DNA of 64,000 nt from Bacteroidales bacterium. GTDB lineage: Bacteria > Bacteroidota > Bacteroidia > Bacteroidales > UBA932. Positions 4,815-59,367 of the stretch are shown here, one piece after another. The notes below the pieces were generated by a model. The model saw only the letters and a list, made by a program, of their open reading frames with translations. It was not told where the DNA came from and made no database searches. The first letter of the stretch is position 1. The number at the start of each line of letters is the position of its first letter. The stretch covers positions 1-64,000 of the forward strand of contig JAFYYM010000075.1 in assembly GCA_017557535.1 (NCBI GenBank), given 5' to 3'. The translations under genes and the position numbers were made by a program.

Positions 4815-5375
4815 TTAATGTGTGACAAATCCTTCAGGGTGCTTACCTTGGAGCCCCATCTGCTCATATATACCTTGGATACGCTCAGTGTCGGCTCTGG
4901 CATCATCGGTCAGTTCCACTTTCTCGCCGGCGCTGACTCTTTTGCGGCCCCAGTCGAAATACCCCAGGTAAACCGGGCAGCCTACGGCCTTCGCTATCAC
5001 GTGATAGCCTGTTTTCCACCTCTTGGTGGCCTTTCGTGTGCCCTCAGGGGCTATCGCGAGTATGAAGGTGTCATCTCCTTCCATATGGTCAATAAGGCTC
5101 TTGACCATCGCCGTAGCATTGCTCCTGTCCACGGGTACGGCTCCCATCCTCTTGATGAGTGGACCTATCGGCCAGAAGAAAAACTCCTTTTTTATCATAA
5201 CCCTGGCCTTTTGCGCGGCGAATTGGGTGTAAAACAGGTATGAAACGATGAAGTCCATCGCCGATGTGTGGGGAACTCCCAGGATTATGGCCTTTTTTTC
5301 AGGGACAGGACCTCCGACAGTGGTCCATCCCATCTTCTTCAGCATCCATCCGCAGAATTGTGCCCAACGTGTCAT
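4815..5375 (-). CDS. 1-acyl-sn-glycerol-3-phosphate acyltransferase family (PlsC-like)
   Basis: 186 aa, short PlsC-type acyltransferase. The HX4D catalytic motif is H36-TSAM-D41, and the substrate-binding block is EGTR at 111-114 followed by a lysine-rich KATKRWKTGY. Family members transfer acyl groups to lysophosphatidate or related lysolipids. At 186 aa it is shorter than the typical 240 aa PlsC, like the short glycerol acyltransferase family found in Bacteroidota. It lies 11 nt after parE and 9 nt before the acyl-CoA ligase, forming a three-gene run. Codons near residue 125 carry a 16-bp perfect palindrome (4993-5008). Confidence 0.85.
   Translation of the reverse strand: MTRWAQFCGWMLKKMGWTTVGGPVPEKKAIILGVPHTSAMDFIVSYLFYTQFAAQKARVMIKKEFFFWPIGPLIKRMGAVPVDRSNATAMVKSLIDHMEGDDTFILAIAPEGTRKATKRWKTGYHVIAKAVGCPVYLGYFDWGRKRVSAGEKVELTDDARADTERIQGIYEQMGLQGKHPEGFVTH
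4993..5008. repeat. 16-bp perfect palindrome with TCACGTGA core
   Basis: GCTATCAC/GTGATAGC, perfectly self-complementary, inside the acyltransferase coding sequence (residues GYHVIA). It shares the TCACGTGA core with the widely conserved parS consensus TGTTTCACGTGAAACA but differs at three positions per half-site. The encoded residues alone could explain it. Confidence 0.3.
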
Positions 5376-49957: not shown

Positions 49958-50899
49958 CTAAATATTAGATTCCTCAAGAGCATTGAGGAACCTCTTCACT
50001 TCCTCATCCGAGTTGAACCTTATAGTCATGGTGCCTTTCCCGGAGGGAGAGCGTTTCAGGCTGATGCTATTATCAAAAAACTTGCCGATGTGCTCGAGAA
50101 CACGGTAATAGTCGTCTGGAAGATCCTGGATCTTCGATGACGGGGAGACATCTTCTTTACCCAGCCTGCGAACTTTCTCCTCAAGTTGACGGACTGAAAG
50201 GCCGTCTTTGATTGTCAGATCGCACAGAAGCTCTTGGATATGAGGATCTTCTATACCCAGAAGGACTTTGGCGTGGCCTGTGCTGAGGAGCCCTGCCTTA
50301 AGGTCGTGCTGAACCTTGGCCGGGAGTTTGAGGAGCCGCAGGTAGTTGGCGACAGACGCTCTTTTCTTGCCCACTCGCTGGGCCATTCTCTCCTGTGTGA
50401 GGTGGCACTCATCCATCAGCCTTTGGTAGCTCATGGCGACCTCGATGGGATCCAGGTCCTGTCTTTGGATATTCTCCACTATGGCCATCTCGAGCATGCC
50501 CTGGTCATCTGTAGCCCGGATATATGCGGGGATGACATCCATCCCGGCGAGCCTGCAAGCGCGGAACCTTCTCTCACCGCTGATGATCTGGTATCGACCG
50601 TCCGGACGTTTCCTGACAGAGATTGGCTGGATCAGGCCGAAAGTCCGGATTGACTCGGCCAATTCTTCCAGGGAATCATTGTCGAAGGCCATTCGTGGCT
50701 GGTACGGGTTGGGATCAACAAGACCGGCGGGGATTCTTAACACGTCGCCATAATCCTGGGATGGCCTGGCACCGGCGATCTCCTTGTTGATATAACCGAC
50801 CGGTTTCCTTTCCGGCTCGTGAATATCCATGTCGCCCAACAGGGCGCTGAGCCCTTTGCCCAGCCTGCTTTCCCGTTTGTCGCTCATCTTGTCTTTCAT
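49958..50899 (-). CDS. parB: Chromosome partitioning protein ParB
   Basis: 313 aa from the ATG at 50899, which overlaps the parA stop (TGATG). ParB binds parS sites, spreads and loads SMC. The N-terminal ParB/Srx domain has LVDPNPYQPRMAFDNDSLEELAESIRTFGLIQPI and the CTP-binding GERRFRACRLAG; the helix-turn-helix is QERMAQRVGKKRASVANYLRLLKLP. A C-terminal dimerisation domain closes the protein (KRSPSGKGTMTIRFNSDEEVKRFLNAL). It is in the parA-parB-DUF5683-mltD run. No exact parS was recognised in this window; see the palindrome at 4993. Confidence 0.95.
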   Translation of the reverse strand: MKDKMSDKRESRLGKGLSALLGDMDIHEPERKPVGYINKEIAGARPSQDYGDVLRIPAGLVDPNPYQPRMAFDNDSLEELAESIRTFGLIQPISVRKRPDGRYQIISGERRFRACRLAGMDVIPAYIRATDDQGMLEMAIVENIQRQDLDPIEVAMSYQRLMDECHLTQERMAQRVGKKRASVANYLRLLKLPAKVQHDLKAGLLSTGHAKVLLGIEDPHIQELLCDLTIKDGLSVRQLEEKVRRLGKEDVSPSSKIQDLPDDYYRVLEHIGKFFDNSISLKRSPSGKGTMTIRFNSDEEVKRFLNALEESNI

Positions 50900-51669
50900 C
50901 ACTTCTCGTTCTTGTCAAGAACCTCCTTGGCGAGGTTCATATAGTTGGATGTGCCGTTACTGACAACGTCATAAAGAATGATTGGCTTCCCGTGAGAGGG
51001 AGCCTCGCTTAGACGTATGCTCCTTTGGATGATAGTCTTGAACACCATGTCCTTGAAGTGTTCCCTGAGTTCGCCCACGACTTGGGCGTGCACTTTTGTC
51101 CTGCCGTCGAACATCGTGACCACAAAGCCCTCGATGGTCAGCGCGGGATTTATCTCCCGCTGTACAAGGCGTATGGTCTGAAGGAGCTTGCCAAGTCCCT
51201 CCAAGGCGAAGAATTCTGGCTGGACCGGGATCATCACGGAATCTGCCGCTGTCAAGGCGTTGATAGTGATCAATCCGAGGGAAGGGGAACAGTCGATGAT
51301 TATGTAGTCATAGTCATCCCTTATTGGCTCAAGCCTACGTTTAAGGAAGGACTCGCGGTTTTCCTCGTCAATCATCTCTATCTCGGCGCCCACGAGGTTG
51401 ATGTGGGACGGAATCATCTGAAGATCAGGTATTTCCGTCTGAACCAACGCATCTCGTACGTCAATCTCACCTATCAGTACCTCATAGATAGTCCTTTTCT
51501 GGTCATTGTCCGGAGAGAAATTAAGGCCGGATGTGGTGTTGGCCTGAGGATCCGCGTCTATGATCAGGACTTTCTTCTCCAGGACGGCCAGGGAGGCCGC
51601 CAGGTTAATTGCGGTAGTGGTCTTTCCCACTCCGCCTTTTTGGTTGGCGATTGCTATGACTTTTCCCAT
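50899..51669 (-). CDS. parA: Chromosome partitioning ATPase ParA (Soj-like)
   Basis: 256 aa from the ATG at 51669; an earlier in-frame ATG at 51687 is less likely because conservation begins with GKVIAIANQKGGVGKTTTAINLA. The deviant Walker A KGGVGKTT, DADPQANTTSGL and the Walker B region DYDYIIIDCSPSLGLITINALTAAD (in pieces) mark a MinD/ParA ATPase. It forms ATP-dependent dimers on DNA and moves ParB-bound origins. It starts the parA-parB-DUF5683-mltD operon and is followed on the same strand by priA upstream (51718). Confidence 0.95.
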   Translation of the reverse strand: MGKVIAIANQKGGVGKTTTAINLAASLAVLEKKVLIIDADPQANTTSGLNFSPDNDQKRTIYEVLIGEIDVRDALVQTEIPDLQMIPSHINLVGAEIEMIDEENRESFLKRRLEPIRDDYDYIIIDCSPSLGLITINALTAADSVMIPVQPEFFALEGLGKLLQTIRLVQREINPALTIEGFVVTMFDGRTKVHAQVVGELREHFKDMVFKTIIQRSIRLSEAPSHGKPIILYDVVSNGTSNYMNLAKEVLDKNEK

Positions 51670-51717
51670 GACTAGACTCTTATTCAATCTACAAATGTAA
51701 TAATTTTTAATCGCTTG

Positions 51718-55823: not shown

Positions 55824-55851
55824 TTGATAAAATGTTGATAATTGTTGATAA
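55824..55851. repeat. Three direct repeats TTGATAA with 10-11 bp spacing (Pho-box-like)
   Basis: TTGATAA at 55824-55830, 55835-55841 and 55845-55851, offset by 11 and 10 bp, each followed by short AT-rich spacers. A 7-bp unit plus 3-4 bp repeated every helical turn is the layout of OmpR/PhoB-type sites. The array is 40-67 bp upstream of the -7 box of the following gene, the position for an activator. Two copies also read TGTTGATAA, the reverse of TTATCAACA, near a DnaA box, as an alternative. Confidence 0.5.
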
Positions 55852-55867
55852 AATAATGTGAAATGAC

Positions 55868-55898
55868 TTTCCGATAAGACGAAAAGCATGTAAATTTG
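55868..55898 (+). promoter_or_regulatory. Promoter of the Na/Pi-PhoU-wHTH fusion gene
   Basis: TTTC at 55868-55871 (one mismatch to TTTG), 19-bp spacer, then TAAATTTG at 55891-55898. The ATG at 55903 is 4 nt after the -7 box, so the mRNA would be leaderless. Confidence 0.6.
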
Positions 55899-55902
55899 TA
55901 GC

Positions 55903-57858
55903 ATGATCCTTACAATATTCAAGCTTCTCGGCTCAATCGCCCTCCTGATGTACGGTATGAAGGTGATGAGCGAGGCCCTTCAGAAGATGGCCGGCCCCGG
56001 CCTGCGACATATCCTCGGGGCGATGACTACCAATCGTTTCACCGGAGTGCTCACCGGAATGCTCGTCTGCGTGGCTGTCCAGTCTTCGGCTGCAACTACG
56101 GTGATGACAGTCTCTTTCGTCAATGCCGCGCTCCTTTCGCTATCGCAGGCCATCTCGGTGATAATGGGAGCGAATATCGGAACCACGCTCTCAGCATGGA
56201 TCATGTCGGCCGGGTTTTCCTTCAATATCGCGAATCTTGTATGGCCGGTATTCCTTGTGGCGGTCATCCTCATACAGAACAGGAAACACCGCTATCTCGG
56301 AGACTTCCTGTTCGGTCTCTCTTTCATGTTCTTCGCACTCGGTACTTTGAATATGACAGGCCGCGAGATGGATCTGGCCCACAATGAGGGAGTTGTTAAC
56401 TTCTTCTCCTCTTTTGATTCCGGAAGCTATCTGACGATTCTGCTATTCCTCTTGGTTGGTGGTGTGTTGACTGTCATAGCCCAGTCCTCAGCCGCCCTCA
56501 TGGCCATCACAATGGTCCTCTGCACCAGCGGGGTCCTTTCTATATACCAAGGTATCGCCCTTGTCATGGGTGAGAATATCGGAACGACTGTGACCGCCAA
56601 TGTGGCCGCTCTATCAGCCAACACACAGGCTCGCCGCGCCGCTCTGGCGCATTTACTCTTCAACGTGTTCGGTGTGCTGTGGGTGTTGTGTCTTTTCTAT
56701 CCTTTCGTCAACGCCGCCTGTTCTATTGTCGGAGTTGATCCCCATGCCGACGCTCAGAGCCCGGCCAGGCTTTCGTTTGTGCTGGCCACATTCCACACGA
56801 TGTTCAATGTGACCAACACCGCCATACTGATCTGGTTCATCCCGCAACTTCAGAAACTGGTGTCTTACCTTATTCCTCAGAAGTCCTCCGATGAGGAATT
56901 CCGTCTGCAGTACATTCAGACCGGTATCATGAAGACTCCTGAAATCTCTGTCCTCCAGGCTCAGAAGGAGACAACTCTCTTCGCCGACAGAATGCGTCAG
57001 ATGTTCGCGCTCGTCCGTGAGTTGTACGATGAGACTGACGATTCGGCATTTGAGAAGAAGATTGAGCGGGTACGGGAGATGGAAAAGATGTCAGACCGTC
57101 TCGAGAGCGAGATCGGAAGCTACCTTGCCCAAGTCTCCAACTCTCATCTTAGTGACGAGACCAAGCGTAAGATCCGCGCCATGTTGCGCGCTGTGAGTGA
57201 GCTTGAGAGTATTGGTGACAGTTGTTTGAACCTCTCAAGGATGATCGAGCGTCGCCATAAGGAGAAAGAGCAGTTCATCCCGGTTCAGGAAGAGGGAATC
57301 GCCACGATGTTCGACCTATTGGACAAAGCTTTCGTCAATATGATCAAAGTGCTTGAGGGTGAGGGAGATCCGGATGAGTCCTGGGCTCTTGAGAATGACA
57401 TCGATGATCTTCGTAACAAGCTGCGGTCTCAAAATACTCTGGATGTGGATGCCGGCAAGTATTCCTTCGCCTTGGGTACCATTTTCGTTGACATTGTCCG
57501 TGAGTGCGAGAAGTGCGGAGACTATGTGATCAATGCTGTAGAGGCTAAGATGGGTAAGAGGGAAGACGCTGATTTACTGAATCTTGACTCCCTGGTTATT
57601 GATCATCAGCGCAAGATCGCTCAGTTGTACGGAGAACCTCTTGATTTGACGAAGGCCGAATTCGAGCTTCTGAGTCTACTGGTCTCCAACCCGGGCAGAG
57701 TCTTCACCCGTGAGGAGCTTGTGGAATCCGTGTGGCCCAAGGATACTTCTGTCAGCGCAAAGGTCGTGGATGGAAGCATCCGTGATATCCGCGGCAAACT
57801 TGGGGATCTGTCTGGCCATATCGCGAATAAGGGCGGACTCGGTTACTGTTTCGAATAA
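55903..57858 (+). CDS. Na+/phosphate cotransporter-PhoU-OmpR-type DNA-binding fusion
   Basis: 651 aa in one frame. Residues 1-325 are the Na/Pi cotransporter (NptA/PF02690-type) with two repeats carrying QSSAATTV (60-67) and QSSAALMA (194-201) and several membrane helices. Residues 355-550 form a PhoU-like helical region (KIERVREMEKMSDRLESEIG, VSELESIGDSCLNLSRMIER, VRECEKCGDYVINAVEAKMG). Residues 560-651 match the OmpR/PhoB effector domain: EPLDLTKAEFELLSLLVSNPGRVFTREELVESVW, then VVDGSIRDIRGKLGD and GGLGYCF, in the winged-helix order. There is no receiver domain. The inferred role is phosphate uptake linked to transcription by the same membrane-tethered protein. Na/Pi-PhoU fusions are common, but I do not recall a known wHTH addition. 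Confidence 0.9.
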   Translation: MILTIFKLLGSIALLMYGMKVMSEALQKMAGPGLRHILGAMTTNRFTGVLTGMLVCVAVQSSAATTVMTVSFVNAALLSLSQAISVIMGANIGTTLSAWIMSAGFSFNIANLVWPVFLVAVILIQNRKHRYLGDFLFGLSFMFFALGTLNMTGREMDLAHNEGVVNFFSSFDSGSYLTILLFLLVGGVLTVIAQSSAALMAITMVLCTSGVLSIYQGIALVMGENIGTTVTANVAALSANTQARRAALAHLLFNVFGVLWVLCLFYPFVNAACSIVGVDPHADAQSPARLSFVLATFHTMFNVTNTAILIWFIPQLQKLVSYLIPQKSSDEEFRLQYIQTGIMKTPEISVLQAQKETTLFADRMRQMFALVRELYDETDDSAFEKKIERVREMEKMSDRLESEIGSYLAQVSNSHLSDETKRKIRAMLRAVSELESIGDSCLNLSRMIERRHKEKEQFIPVQEEGIATMFDLLDKAFVNMIKVLEGEGDPDESWALENDIDDLRNKLRSQNTLDVDAGKYSFALGTIFVDIVRECEKCGDYVINAVEAKMGKREDADLLNLDSLVIDHQRKIAQLYGEPLDLTKAEFELLSLLVSNPGRVFTREELVESVWPKDTSVSAKVVDGSIRDIRGKLGDLSGHIANKGGLGYCFE

Positions 57859-57876
57859 CACATAAAGCTATAACCA

Positions 57877-59367
57877 ATGTTCACAAAAGAAGATATCGCC
57901 CAGATAATGGGGCGTGGCGCTAGCCAATCCCAGGTGGAGGAACAAGTTGACCGCTTCAGGAAAGGCTTTCCCTGGATGAGAATCGTGGCTCCGGCCACTC
58001 CCGGGAACGGAATCAAGGTTCTCTCAGCTGAAGATGCGAAGGAGTCGGTAGAGTATTACCATAGAGCGTCAGTCGAGGGCAAATGCAAATTCGTCCCGGC
58101 CTCTGGGGCCGCGTCAAGGATGTTCAAGGACATGTTCTCAGGGCTTGCCAAACTTGAGGCTGGCGAAGACCTTCCCGCAGACGCACCCGGCGCTAAGCTC
58201 GCCGCGAGGATCAAGGATTTCGCTTTCTACGACGAGACGTTGTTCGGTGAGCCTGAAGATAGCCGCGAGTACAGGATAAAAGCCTTGTCAAGGCTTCTGG
58301 GTGAGGATGGCCTCGCTTACGGTTCCAAACCAAAGGGTGTCTTGAAGTTCCACAGTTATCCCTCCGAGGTTAGGACAGCTATCGCTGAGCATCTTGTTGA
58401 GGCTCAGGAATATATGCGTGATTATGAAGATGTCTGCCATCTCGTGGTGACCATATCCCCTGAGCACCGGGAGCTTTTCGAAAAGGCCGTCTCAGAGGTG
58501 GTTCCGGAATATGAGAAGCGCTATGGCGTCCATTATGATATCAATTTCACCTATCAGGACAAGGCGACTGACACGATTGCGGTTGACATGGATAACGAAC
58601 CTTTCCGTACCTCTGACGGGAAACTTCTTTTCCGACCGGCAGGTCATGGAGCGCTTATCCACAACCTCAACGAGGTCGACTCTGAGCTGGTCTCGATCAA
58701 GAACATCGACAATGTCTCCCATGAGAAATACCTCGGAGAGACATCCTTCTATAAGCAGGTCCTCATGGGGGAGGCGCTTAGTTTGCGGGACCAGATATTC
58801 CTCTATATCAGGCGGCTGAACGCTAATCCTTCAGAAGAGATTTGCGCGGAGATAGAAGAATTCCTTGACGTTGTCCTCTGTGTCAAGATTCCTAAGGTCA
58901 GTGACCTTAAGGCGAAGGCGGAGTTGCTGCGTTCAAAGCTAAACCGTCCGATCCGGGTTTGCGGTATGGTACGCAACGAGGGAGAGCCCGGTGGAGGCCC
59001 GTATATCATTGAGGGAAAGGACGGCTGCACATCGCTTCAGATTCTGGAGAGTGTCCAGATCAACAAGGATGACCCGCATGCGGCTGAGGCTATGGCGGGG
59101 GCCACACACTTCAACCCTGTTGACTTGGTCTGCTTGCTTCGGGACTGCAGGGGAGAGAAGTTCGATCTTCTTTCCCACGTTGACCCTGAGACCGGTTTCA
59201 TCAGCTCGAAGAGTTATCAGGGTAGGGAATTGAAAGCACTGGAACTTCCCGGTCTGTGGAACGGAGCCATGAGCGACTGGAACACCCTTTTCGTGGAGGT
59301 TCCGCTTATAACATTCAACCCGGTGAAAGTCGTCCTGGACCTGCTGCGTCCGGCGCACCAGGGGTGA
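57877..59367 (+). CDS. DUF4301 protein
   Basis: 496 aa. The first 250 residues contain the conserved block KFVPASGAASRMFKDMFSGL with PSEVRTAIAEHLVEAQEYM, and the second half RFRPAGHGALIHNLNEVDSE (here LLFRPAGHGALIHNLNEVDS), VRNEGEPGGGPYIIEGKDG and ATHFNPVDLVC. No signal peptide or membrane helix, so cytosolic. Segments such as GHGALIHNL and NEGEPGGGP recall sugar-phosphate nucleotidyltransferases, so an enzyme of nucleotide-sugar type is possible but not shown. It is 18 nt downstream of the phosphate fusion gene and may be co-transcribed. Confidence 0.88.
   Translation: MFTKEDIAQIMGRGASQSQVEEQVDRFRKGFPWMRIVAPATPGNGIKVLSAEDAKESVEYYHRASVEGKCKFVPASGAASRMFKDMFSGLAKLEAGEDLPADAPGAKLAARIKDFAFYDETLFGEPEDSREYRIKALSRLLGEDGLAYGSKPKGVLKFHSYPSEVRTAIAEHLVEAQEYMRDYEDVCHLVVTISPEHRELFEKAVSEVVPEYEKRYGVHYDINFTYQDKATDTIAVDMDNEPFRTSDGKLLFRPAGHGALIHNLNEVDSELVSIKNIDNVSHEKYLGETSFYKQVLMGEALSLRDQIFLYIRRLNANPSEEICAEIEEFLDVVLCVKIPKVSDLKAKAELLRSKLNRPIRVCGMVRNEGEPGGGPYIIEGKDGCTSLQILESVQINKDDPHAAEAMAGATHFNPVDLVCLLRDCRGEKFDLLSHVDPETGFISSKSYQGRELKALELPGLWNGAMSDWNTLFVEVPLITFNPVKVVLDLLRPAHQG

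Follow-up and report, generated by a model that had tools for sequence, protein, structure and literature searches.

A predicted phosphate regulator of Bacteroidales with a PhoB-type DNA-binding domain at the C-terminus of a Na/Pi cotransporter-PhoU protein

In phosphate systems of the Escherichia coli type (Pst-PhoU-PhoR-PhoB), the DNA-binding domain of PhoB sits on 11-bp direct repeats. PhoU relays the state of the transporter in these systems, and transporters acting as sensors for separate kinases are known, according to PMC6978683. A fusion protein encoded in the window (the whole stretch of 64,000 nucleotides that was analyzed) is comparable in the relay expected of its PhoU part, but differs in having no ABC transporter, kinase, receiver or phosphoryl transfer and in being a single chain. 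Its first two thirds are the same as in NptA-type Na/Pi transporters with a C-terminal PhoU. In PMC13170248, each PhoU clade is tied to one transporter family (section 5), and the words fused, fusion and DNA-binding are absent from the main text of that paper. What distinguishes the present protein from the NptA type is that PhoU is followed by a DNA-binding domain.

ToxR and CadC, the domains of which are OmpR-like, are membrane-tethered one-component factors, as the fusion would be; however, the sensor of the fusion is a complete multi-pass transporter with PhoU, and its DNA-binding domain is C-terminal. One-component transmembrane regulators are known (PMC10269533), and in the available text of this survey the word transporter occurs a single time, within the title of a reference. 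The same text describes Neisseria Rsp and the hybrid two-component proteins of Bacteroides, in which a membrane sensor is joined to the DNA-binding domain of a partner regulator (PMC10269533). The sensor is of the kinase type there, whereas it is a transporter in the fusion. YjbB has a PhoU domain and, to our knowledge, no DNA-binding domain. It is also a Na/Pi cotransporter and promotes Pi export, as stated in PMC11389368. Transporters as sensors, tethered one-component regulators and NptA-PhoU proteins are known; the open-access literature searched yielded no description of a transporter that carries a DNA-binding domain itself.

Domain composition and distribution of the fused chain

The gene and its parts are located as follows.

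55903..57858, + strand: fusion gene, 651 aa, Na/Pi cotransporter, PhoU and PhoB-type winged helix (ORF, Pfam, genus genomes)
55942..56679, + strand: Na/Pi cotransporter core, two PF02690 stretches (Pfam; TIGR00704)
56965..57552, + strand: PhoU part, residues 355-550, with ExxxD motifs E435-D439 and E536-D540 (PF01895)
57568..57855, + strand: PhoB/OmpR-type winged-helix DNA-binding domain, residues 556-651, without a preceding receiver (PF00486, NF053854, 1gxp)
57760..57801, + strand: recognition helix, residues 620-633 (alignment with E. coli PhoB)

The gene is a single frame of 651 codons that starts with ATG (55903-57858, +), uninterrupted as the preliminary description had read it. Two stretches match PF02690, the best at residues 14-149 (Pfam, E 1.3e-51, 174.7 bits against a cut-off of 29.1), TIGR00704 (Na/Pi cotransporter II-related) exceeds its cut-off (220.9 versus 210.1 bits), and QSSA motifs occur at residues 60 and 194, one in each of the two transporter repeats with QSS, which together confirm the transporter core that had been proposed from these motifs. 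The PhoU-like part placed earlier at residues 355-550 was recovered by PF01895 (Pfam, best 362-446, E 2.1e-11, 44.5 bits against a cut-off of 23.5). The E and D of both ExxxD motifs are invariant in all 41 rows of alignment A2 (34 fused and 7 non-fused proteins), in which PF02690 and PF01895 were matched in 41 of 41 proteins and PF00486 in 34 of 41. The C-terminal winged helix of OmpR/PhoB type, suggested at first for residues 560-651, was also found by the profile search, PF00486 covering residues 577-650 with its complete profile (positions 1-77 of 77; E 4.1e-20, score 72.1 bits, cut-off 26.2), and the solved PhoB domain 1gxp matches this tail with E 3.8e-7. The best NCBIfam model for the tail is NF053854 (Bacteroidota PhoB), which was matched with 85 bits over model positions 124-225, its DNA-binding half; this falls far short of the whole-protein cut-off of 270 bits, which applies to PhoB with a receiver.

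No histidine kinase or receiver was detected among the four Pfam families matched at E<=1, the fourth of which is a spectrin repeat under its cut-off (E 0.23), and no kinase or receiver stretch is present among the 25 of 42 NCBIfam matches listed, where regulator models match via their DNA-binding half. The initial view of transporter, PhoU and DNA-binding output in one protein without kinase or receiver is thus upheld by both Pfam and NCBIfam. Hydropathy revealed no hydrophobic segment past residue 330 (19-residue windows reach at most 1.2, threshold 1.6), so PhoU and the tail are expected on the same face of the membrane, which, as judged from PhoU, is presumably the cytosolic one. With hydropathy as the sole basis for the membrane assignment, the predicted layout is that of a membrane-tethered one-component protein, i.e., a membrane part and a DNA-binding domain without kinase or receiver.

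A total of 61 distinct fusion proteins, mostly from uncultured organisms, were identified in Bacteroidales and divided into groups A (17, including the window gene), B (39) and C (5). Within the genus, 27 of 200 genomes, the source genome included, have a full-length fusion free of stop codons; this count takes in G173, where the protein starts at residue 7 at a contig end, and leaves out G116, which has a partial copy from residue 85. The origin of the fusion by chimeric assembly or by a sequencing frameshift that joins two genes, the latter a concern of the preliminary description, is therefore rejected. Two B copies are present in G003, G172, G087 and G108, and one A and one B copy in G080. 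Among the best 80 of 580 relatives in a scan of named genomes, many are, going by their titles, ruminant foregut MAGs and the closest is RUG13086, 96% identical to the window fusion; in the same scan, group C was found in MAGs labelled Prevotellaceae, Prevotella or Bacteroidales. No fusion was detected among 24 genomes that belong to the same order but to different families. A search of 395 Bacteroidota genomes gave 43 matches to PhoU plus tail at E<=1e-22, and the winged helix is spanned by that of the window gene alone; the other 42 stop by query residue 245 of 311, and the match reaching 245 crosses a stop. Absence elsewhere is only as good as this thin sample, since the 395 genomes also missed group C.

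Other phosphate and regulator genes were surveyed in 50 genomes, 16 with and 34 without the fusion. PhoB exceeded its model cut-off in one fusion genome (G061) and in 11 of the 34 others, and the PhoBs of G212 and G090 did not reach the cut-off of 270 bits (236 and 242 bits); PstB exceeded its cut-off in none of the 16 and in five of the 34. The only PF00486 proteins at E<=1e-5 are the fusions themselves in 9 of the 16 fusion genomes. PhoR had no match at E<=1e-25 in ten of the 16, was strongly matched in G212, G090 and G061, and weakly in G187, G080 and G172. PHO4 was absent at E<=1e-5 from 13 of the 15 fusion genomes searched and present in G212 and G090. In four of 15 genomes searched (G000, G113, G187 and G120), the fusion is the sole PF02690 protein at E<=1e-8, and these four had no match to PHO4 or PstB; being the only Pi transporter found speaks for import by the fusion and, where this is so, makes export unlikely. 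The source genome (G000) is a MAG with 95% completeness, in which no PF00486 protein and no Pi transporter other than the fusion was found, single absences being no proof because the genomes are MAGs. The regulator can also vanish outright, since the non-fused relatives G112, G223, G032, G018 and G036 had no match whatever to PF00486 or PhoR. Separately, a phoB-like gene adjoins a PHO4-family (PF01384) transporter frame in four genomes (G212:C7, G090:C29, G073:C7 and G162:C25), so that PhoB is paired with a transporter not of the Pst type there as well.

An operon relative and the history of the join

In G016 and G088 (loci L072 and L087), phoB and then phoR directly follow a non-fused transporter, and the same order was found in G083 (L070) and at L257, L260 and L262, making six operon loci in total. 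This transporter-phoB-phoR operon is the likely parent of the fusion. The fusions have the transporter and PhoU through to the final PhoU helix (INVVEARLG or a similar sequence) and continue, after a short and variable linker, with the PhoB-type winged helix. At the join, VEARLGAV of a B fusion resembles LLARIGAV, with which the receiver of the G016 PhoB has its last helix, and the PhoU helix may therefore occupy the position of the receiver helix.

The winged-helix tree comprised 55 rows and 107 columns, with group C left out, and groups A (100/99) and B (95/95) each formed one group. A fork at 88/87 holds A, B and six full PhoBs, and 11 other PhoBs stand apart; three of the six are from the operon (L095, L070 and L104), and for the other three (L096, L099 and L106) a position adjoining such a transporter is not established. 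The evidence on one origin or two for A and B pulls both ways: their winged helices join at 94/84, and in the transporter tree the A side includes L087, where the operon is intact. The transporter tree contains 144 distinct rows (61 fused, 6 operon and 77 non-fused) and omits 17 named fragments or repeats, rows of less than 540 residues or without a start, as well as rows identical over residues 21-500 and all but six of the distant (~40% identical) homologues. The fused label changes 13 times on this tree, at least 10 of the changes being forced by starred branches, and a single clade of fused transporters was rejected (AU p 1.2e-30, 42 chosen rows). The join would therefore have been gained more than once, or gained and then lost many times, or transferred sideways. 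When 48 loci were tested for decayed winged-helix remnants behind non-fused genes, only three operons and a contig-edge fragment (L017) were matched. A stop-crossing match in G032, considered as a decayed tail, was read in three frames, none of which revealed a recognisable remnant.

Promoter repeats and recognition helices

The box search used the half-site GTTACAAT occurring twice at 11-bp spacing within 130 bases upstream, compared with 400 dinucleotide shuffles. This half-site was drawn from the operon loci, the B sequences being known before that choice, and it replaced an earlier promoter matrix whose training set, 7 B sites and 2 operon sites, made it circular for those sites. At p<=0.05, the box was present at five of six operons (the training set; L087 is without it), before 19 of 38 B, 3 of 5 C and 2 of 17 A fusions, and at 5 of 71 non-fused and 1 of 6 outgroup loci. 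The spacing of 11 is the peak in both B (z 14.8) and C (z 6.4), and the C boxes have the opposite orientation, like those of L257, L260 and L262. The promoter of a B fusion can have GTTAAAATTCTGTTACAAT. A simple repeat-period scan gave a weak signal in clade A. The box accompanies a DNA-binding partner in 29 of 66 rows versus 6 of 77 (Fisher 5e-7, with related rows and with the training operons included in the 66); on independent pairs, the link is not significant (3.4 versus 0.2, median p 0.25).

Where present, the box of B and C fusions lies 73-94 nt upstream of the start codon and 5' of likely promoter elements. A position upstream of the promoter is typical for activators such as PhoB, and activation in low Pi is favoured because of it. 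The same position argues against negative autoregulation, an unlikely alternative in which an abundant or loaded transporter would, via its tethered domain, repress the promoter of its own gene, giving a homeostat rather than a starvation switch. Self-limitation would be simple for a tethered factor, and BF4351, a putative Na-dependent phosphate transporter of Bacteroides fragilis, is listed at -101-fold under Pi limitation in the wild type, while the column for the phoB mutant gives no value for it (PMC3547664).

A strict box pattern had 18 matches in 25 whole genomes, eight of them at a fusion or operon promoter, compared with one match of the reversed-pattern control, and such a promoter is the only match in the genomes of G154, G061, G172, G003 and G016. 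As the pattern was drawn from such promoters, rarity elsewhere is what counts, and it therefore suggests, at the strictness of this pattern, a regulon close to one gene. The fusion genomes G000, G113, G095, G187, G214 and G087 had no match. The strict pattern, examined as a Pho box of Pst-type genomes, was also absent from all six pst loci, which could therefore not be used as an independent training set. The scarcity of other genomic sites, again at the strictness used, fits a tethered self-regulator better than a soluble regulator whose release by a protease in low Pi would free the tail; regulated release of membrane factors is known, and the short variable linker between PhoU and the winged helix would suit it, but this course of events is judged quite improbable.

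Two further boxes were observed at other places. In L093 (G027:C55), identical boxes GTTAAAATTCTGTTACAA are located at 2070-2087 and 4918-4935, the extra copy being 2.85 kb before that of the fusion and having no clear gene directly behind it, which might represent a duplicated promoter or a small RNA. In L195 (G090:C45), a box at 1501-1518 lies ~120 bases before the start of a different Na/Pi cotransporter gene on the opposite strand, and this second gene is a possible second target.

The canonical 11-bp box is absent before the window gene itself (p 0.71), where two other elements were found.

55824..55851, + strand: candidate operator, TTGATAA in three copies that follow each other after 11 and 10 bp (genome-wide pattern match)
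55891..55898, + strand: TAAATTTG, which we take to be a Bacteroidota-type -7 promoter element (sequence; largely conserved across aligned promoters)

The pattern TTGATAAN{3,5}TTGATAA has two overlapping matches here, the only ones in the 3.38-Mb genome (control none). The 96%-identical sister has a single TTGATAA before its fusion gene and thus does not retain the repeat. Among relatives, the paired pattern occurs only at other places, twice in G113 and once in G212, ~300 bases before reading frames that appear by eye unrelated to phosphate, and not in G065 or G185. When six promoters of the subclade were aligned, GTTGATAAA (55844-55852) was the longest block without variation, with one copy at the same place in all six, whereas the repeat as such is not conserved among them. 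This conservation, together with the absence of a clear GC-skew switch in the window, speaks against the TTGATAA repeats being DnaA boxes unrelated to the fusion, a reading with a rather small chance of being right. It draws on two TTATCAACA-type matches at the repeats, TTATCAACA (the reverse strand of the TTGATAA repeat) presumably resembling a DnaA box, and on genes 4-6 kb from the repeats (49958-51687) which we take to be parB- and parA-like.

The element TAAATTTG ends four bases before the ATG (55891-55905), and close relatives are similar, so the transcript of the window fusion may be leaderless. The gene for a 496-aa protein, which we assume to be of DUF4301 type, begins 18 bases behind the fusion (57877-59367). 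This order is kept in the subclade of the window gene, and in the flanks examined the 496-aa gene is not beside other fusions except at L236, where it precedes the fusion gene.

The recognition helix of the window gene is KVVDGSIRDIRGK, in which K620, G624, S625, R627, D628 and R630 align with positions 193, 197, 198, 200, 201 and 203 of E. coli PhoB. R193, R200, R201 and R203 are basic residues of the PhoB recognition helix. The loss of such residues, which the preliminary description had raised as a concern, is partial: R200 and R203 are unchanged, whereas R193K and R201D, as well as H198S, are substitutions. Position 201 is D or E in all six rows of the window gene's subclade. Many B and some C fusions have nearly the recognition helix found in the operon PhoB (RTVDVNITRIRKK or close to it), and in others this helix has diverged. 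Within A, both arginine 201 and the canonical box are changed relative to the parent form in the clade of the window gene, which is suggestive of a changed recognition helix accompanying a changed box. In 17 of 19 close pairs, dN/dS of the winged helix is 0.014-0.164 (two pairs are saturated), compared with 0.015-0.185 for PhoU and 0.008-0.056 for the transporter core in the same pairs, and by this measure the winged helix is kept under purifying selection.

It is doubtful that DNA binding has been lost from the winged helix and that its sole role is structural or in dimerisation, as a module of PhoU, the fusion being neutral. Such a module would agree with the 13 changes of the fused label, with R201D and the missing canonical box in the window gene's clade and with the diverged recognition helices of some B members, but its low dN/dS, the box before about half of the B and C fusions and the identity of many B recognition helices with that of the operon PhoB are at odds with it.

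Proposed mechanism and significance

The reading preferred here, to which a probability of roughly 60% is assigned, is that the fusion is a transport-coupled, membrane-tethered one-component phosphate regulator derived from a collapsed operon and acting mainly on its own gene. Judged from its domains and its relatives, the protein would both sense phosphate and control transcription; DNA binding, the sign of control and the direction of transport are likewise what we infer. The transporter would import Pi, and its loading or transport state would be passed through PhoU to the winged helix, as it is passed by PhoU elsewhere to PhoR. When Pi is low, winged helices from at least two protomers would bind the tandem repeats beside their own promoter, as a dimer or higher oligomer on direct repeats, and activate it, and import or binding of Pi would then free them from the promoter. 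In the clade of the window gene, the same device would operate on a different site, TTGATAA, by means of a recognition helix that has changed as well. A bolder version, given slightly less than an even chance, is that the transporter doubles as the transcription factor of its own gene and controls a regulon of about this size, one gene, evolution having dismantled the two-component system more than once: kinase and receiver were discarded and the DNA-binding domain was attached to the transporter, so that flux would control the gene without phosphorylation.

PhoU signalling is usually hard to study because several proteins are involved. The fusion has relay and output in one chain, and the signal could therefore be read directly from promoter binding; it might also provide a compact phosphate sensor for synthetic biology. 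In addition, the family, whose hosts are uncultured rumen and gut bacteria, presents operon, fusion and loss side by side, as if a two-component system were turning into a one-component system, perhaps repeatedly.
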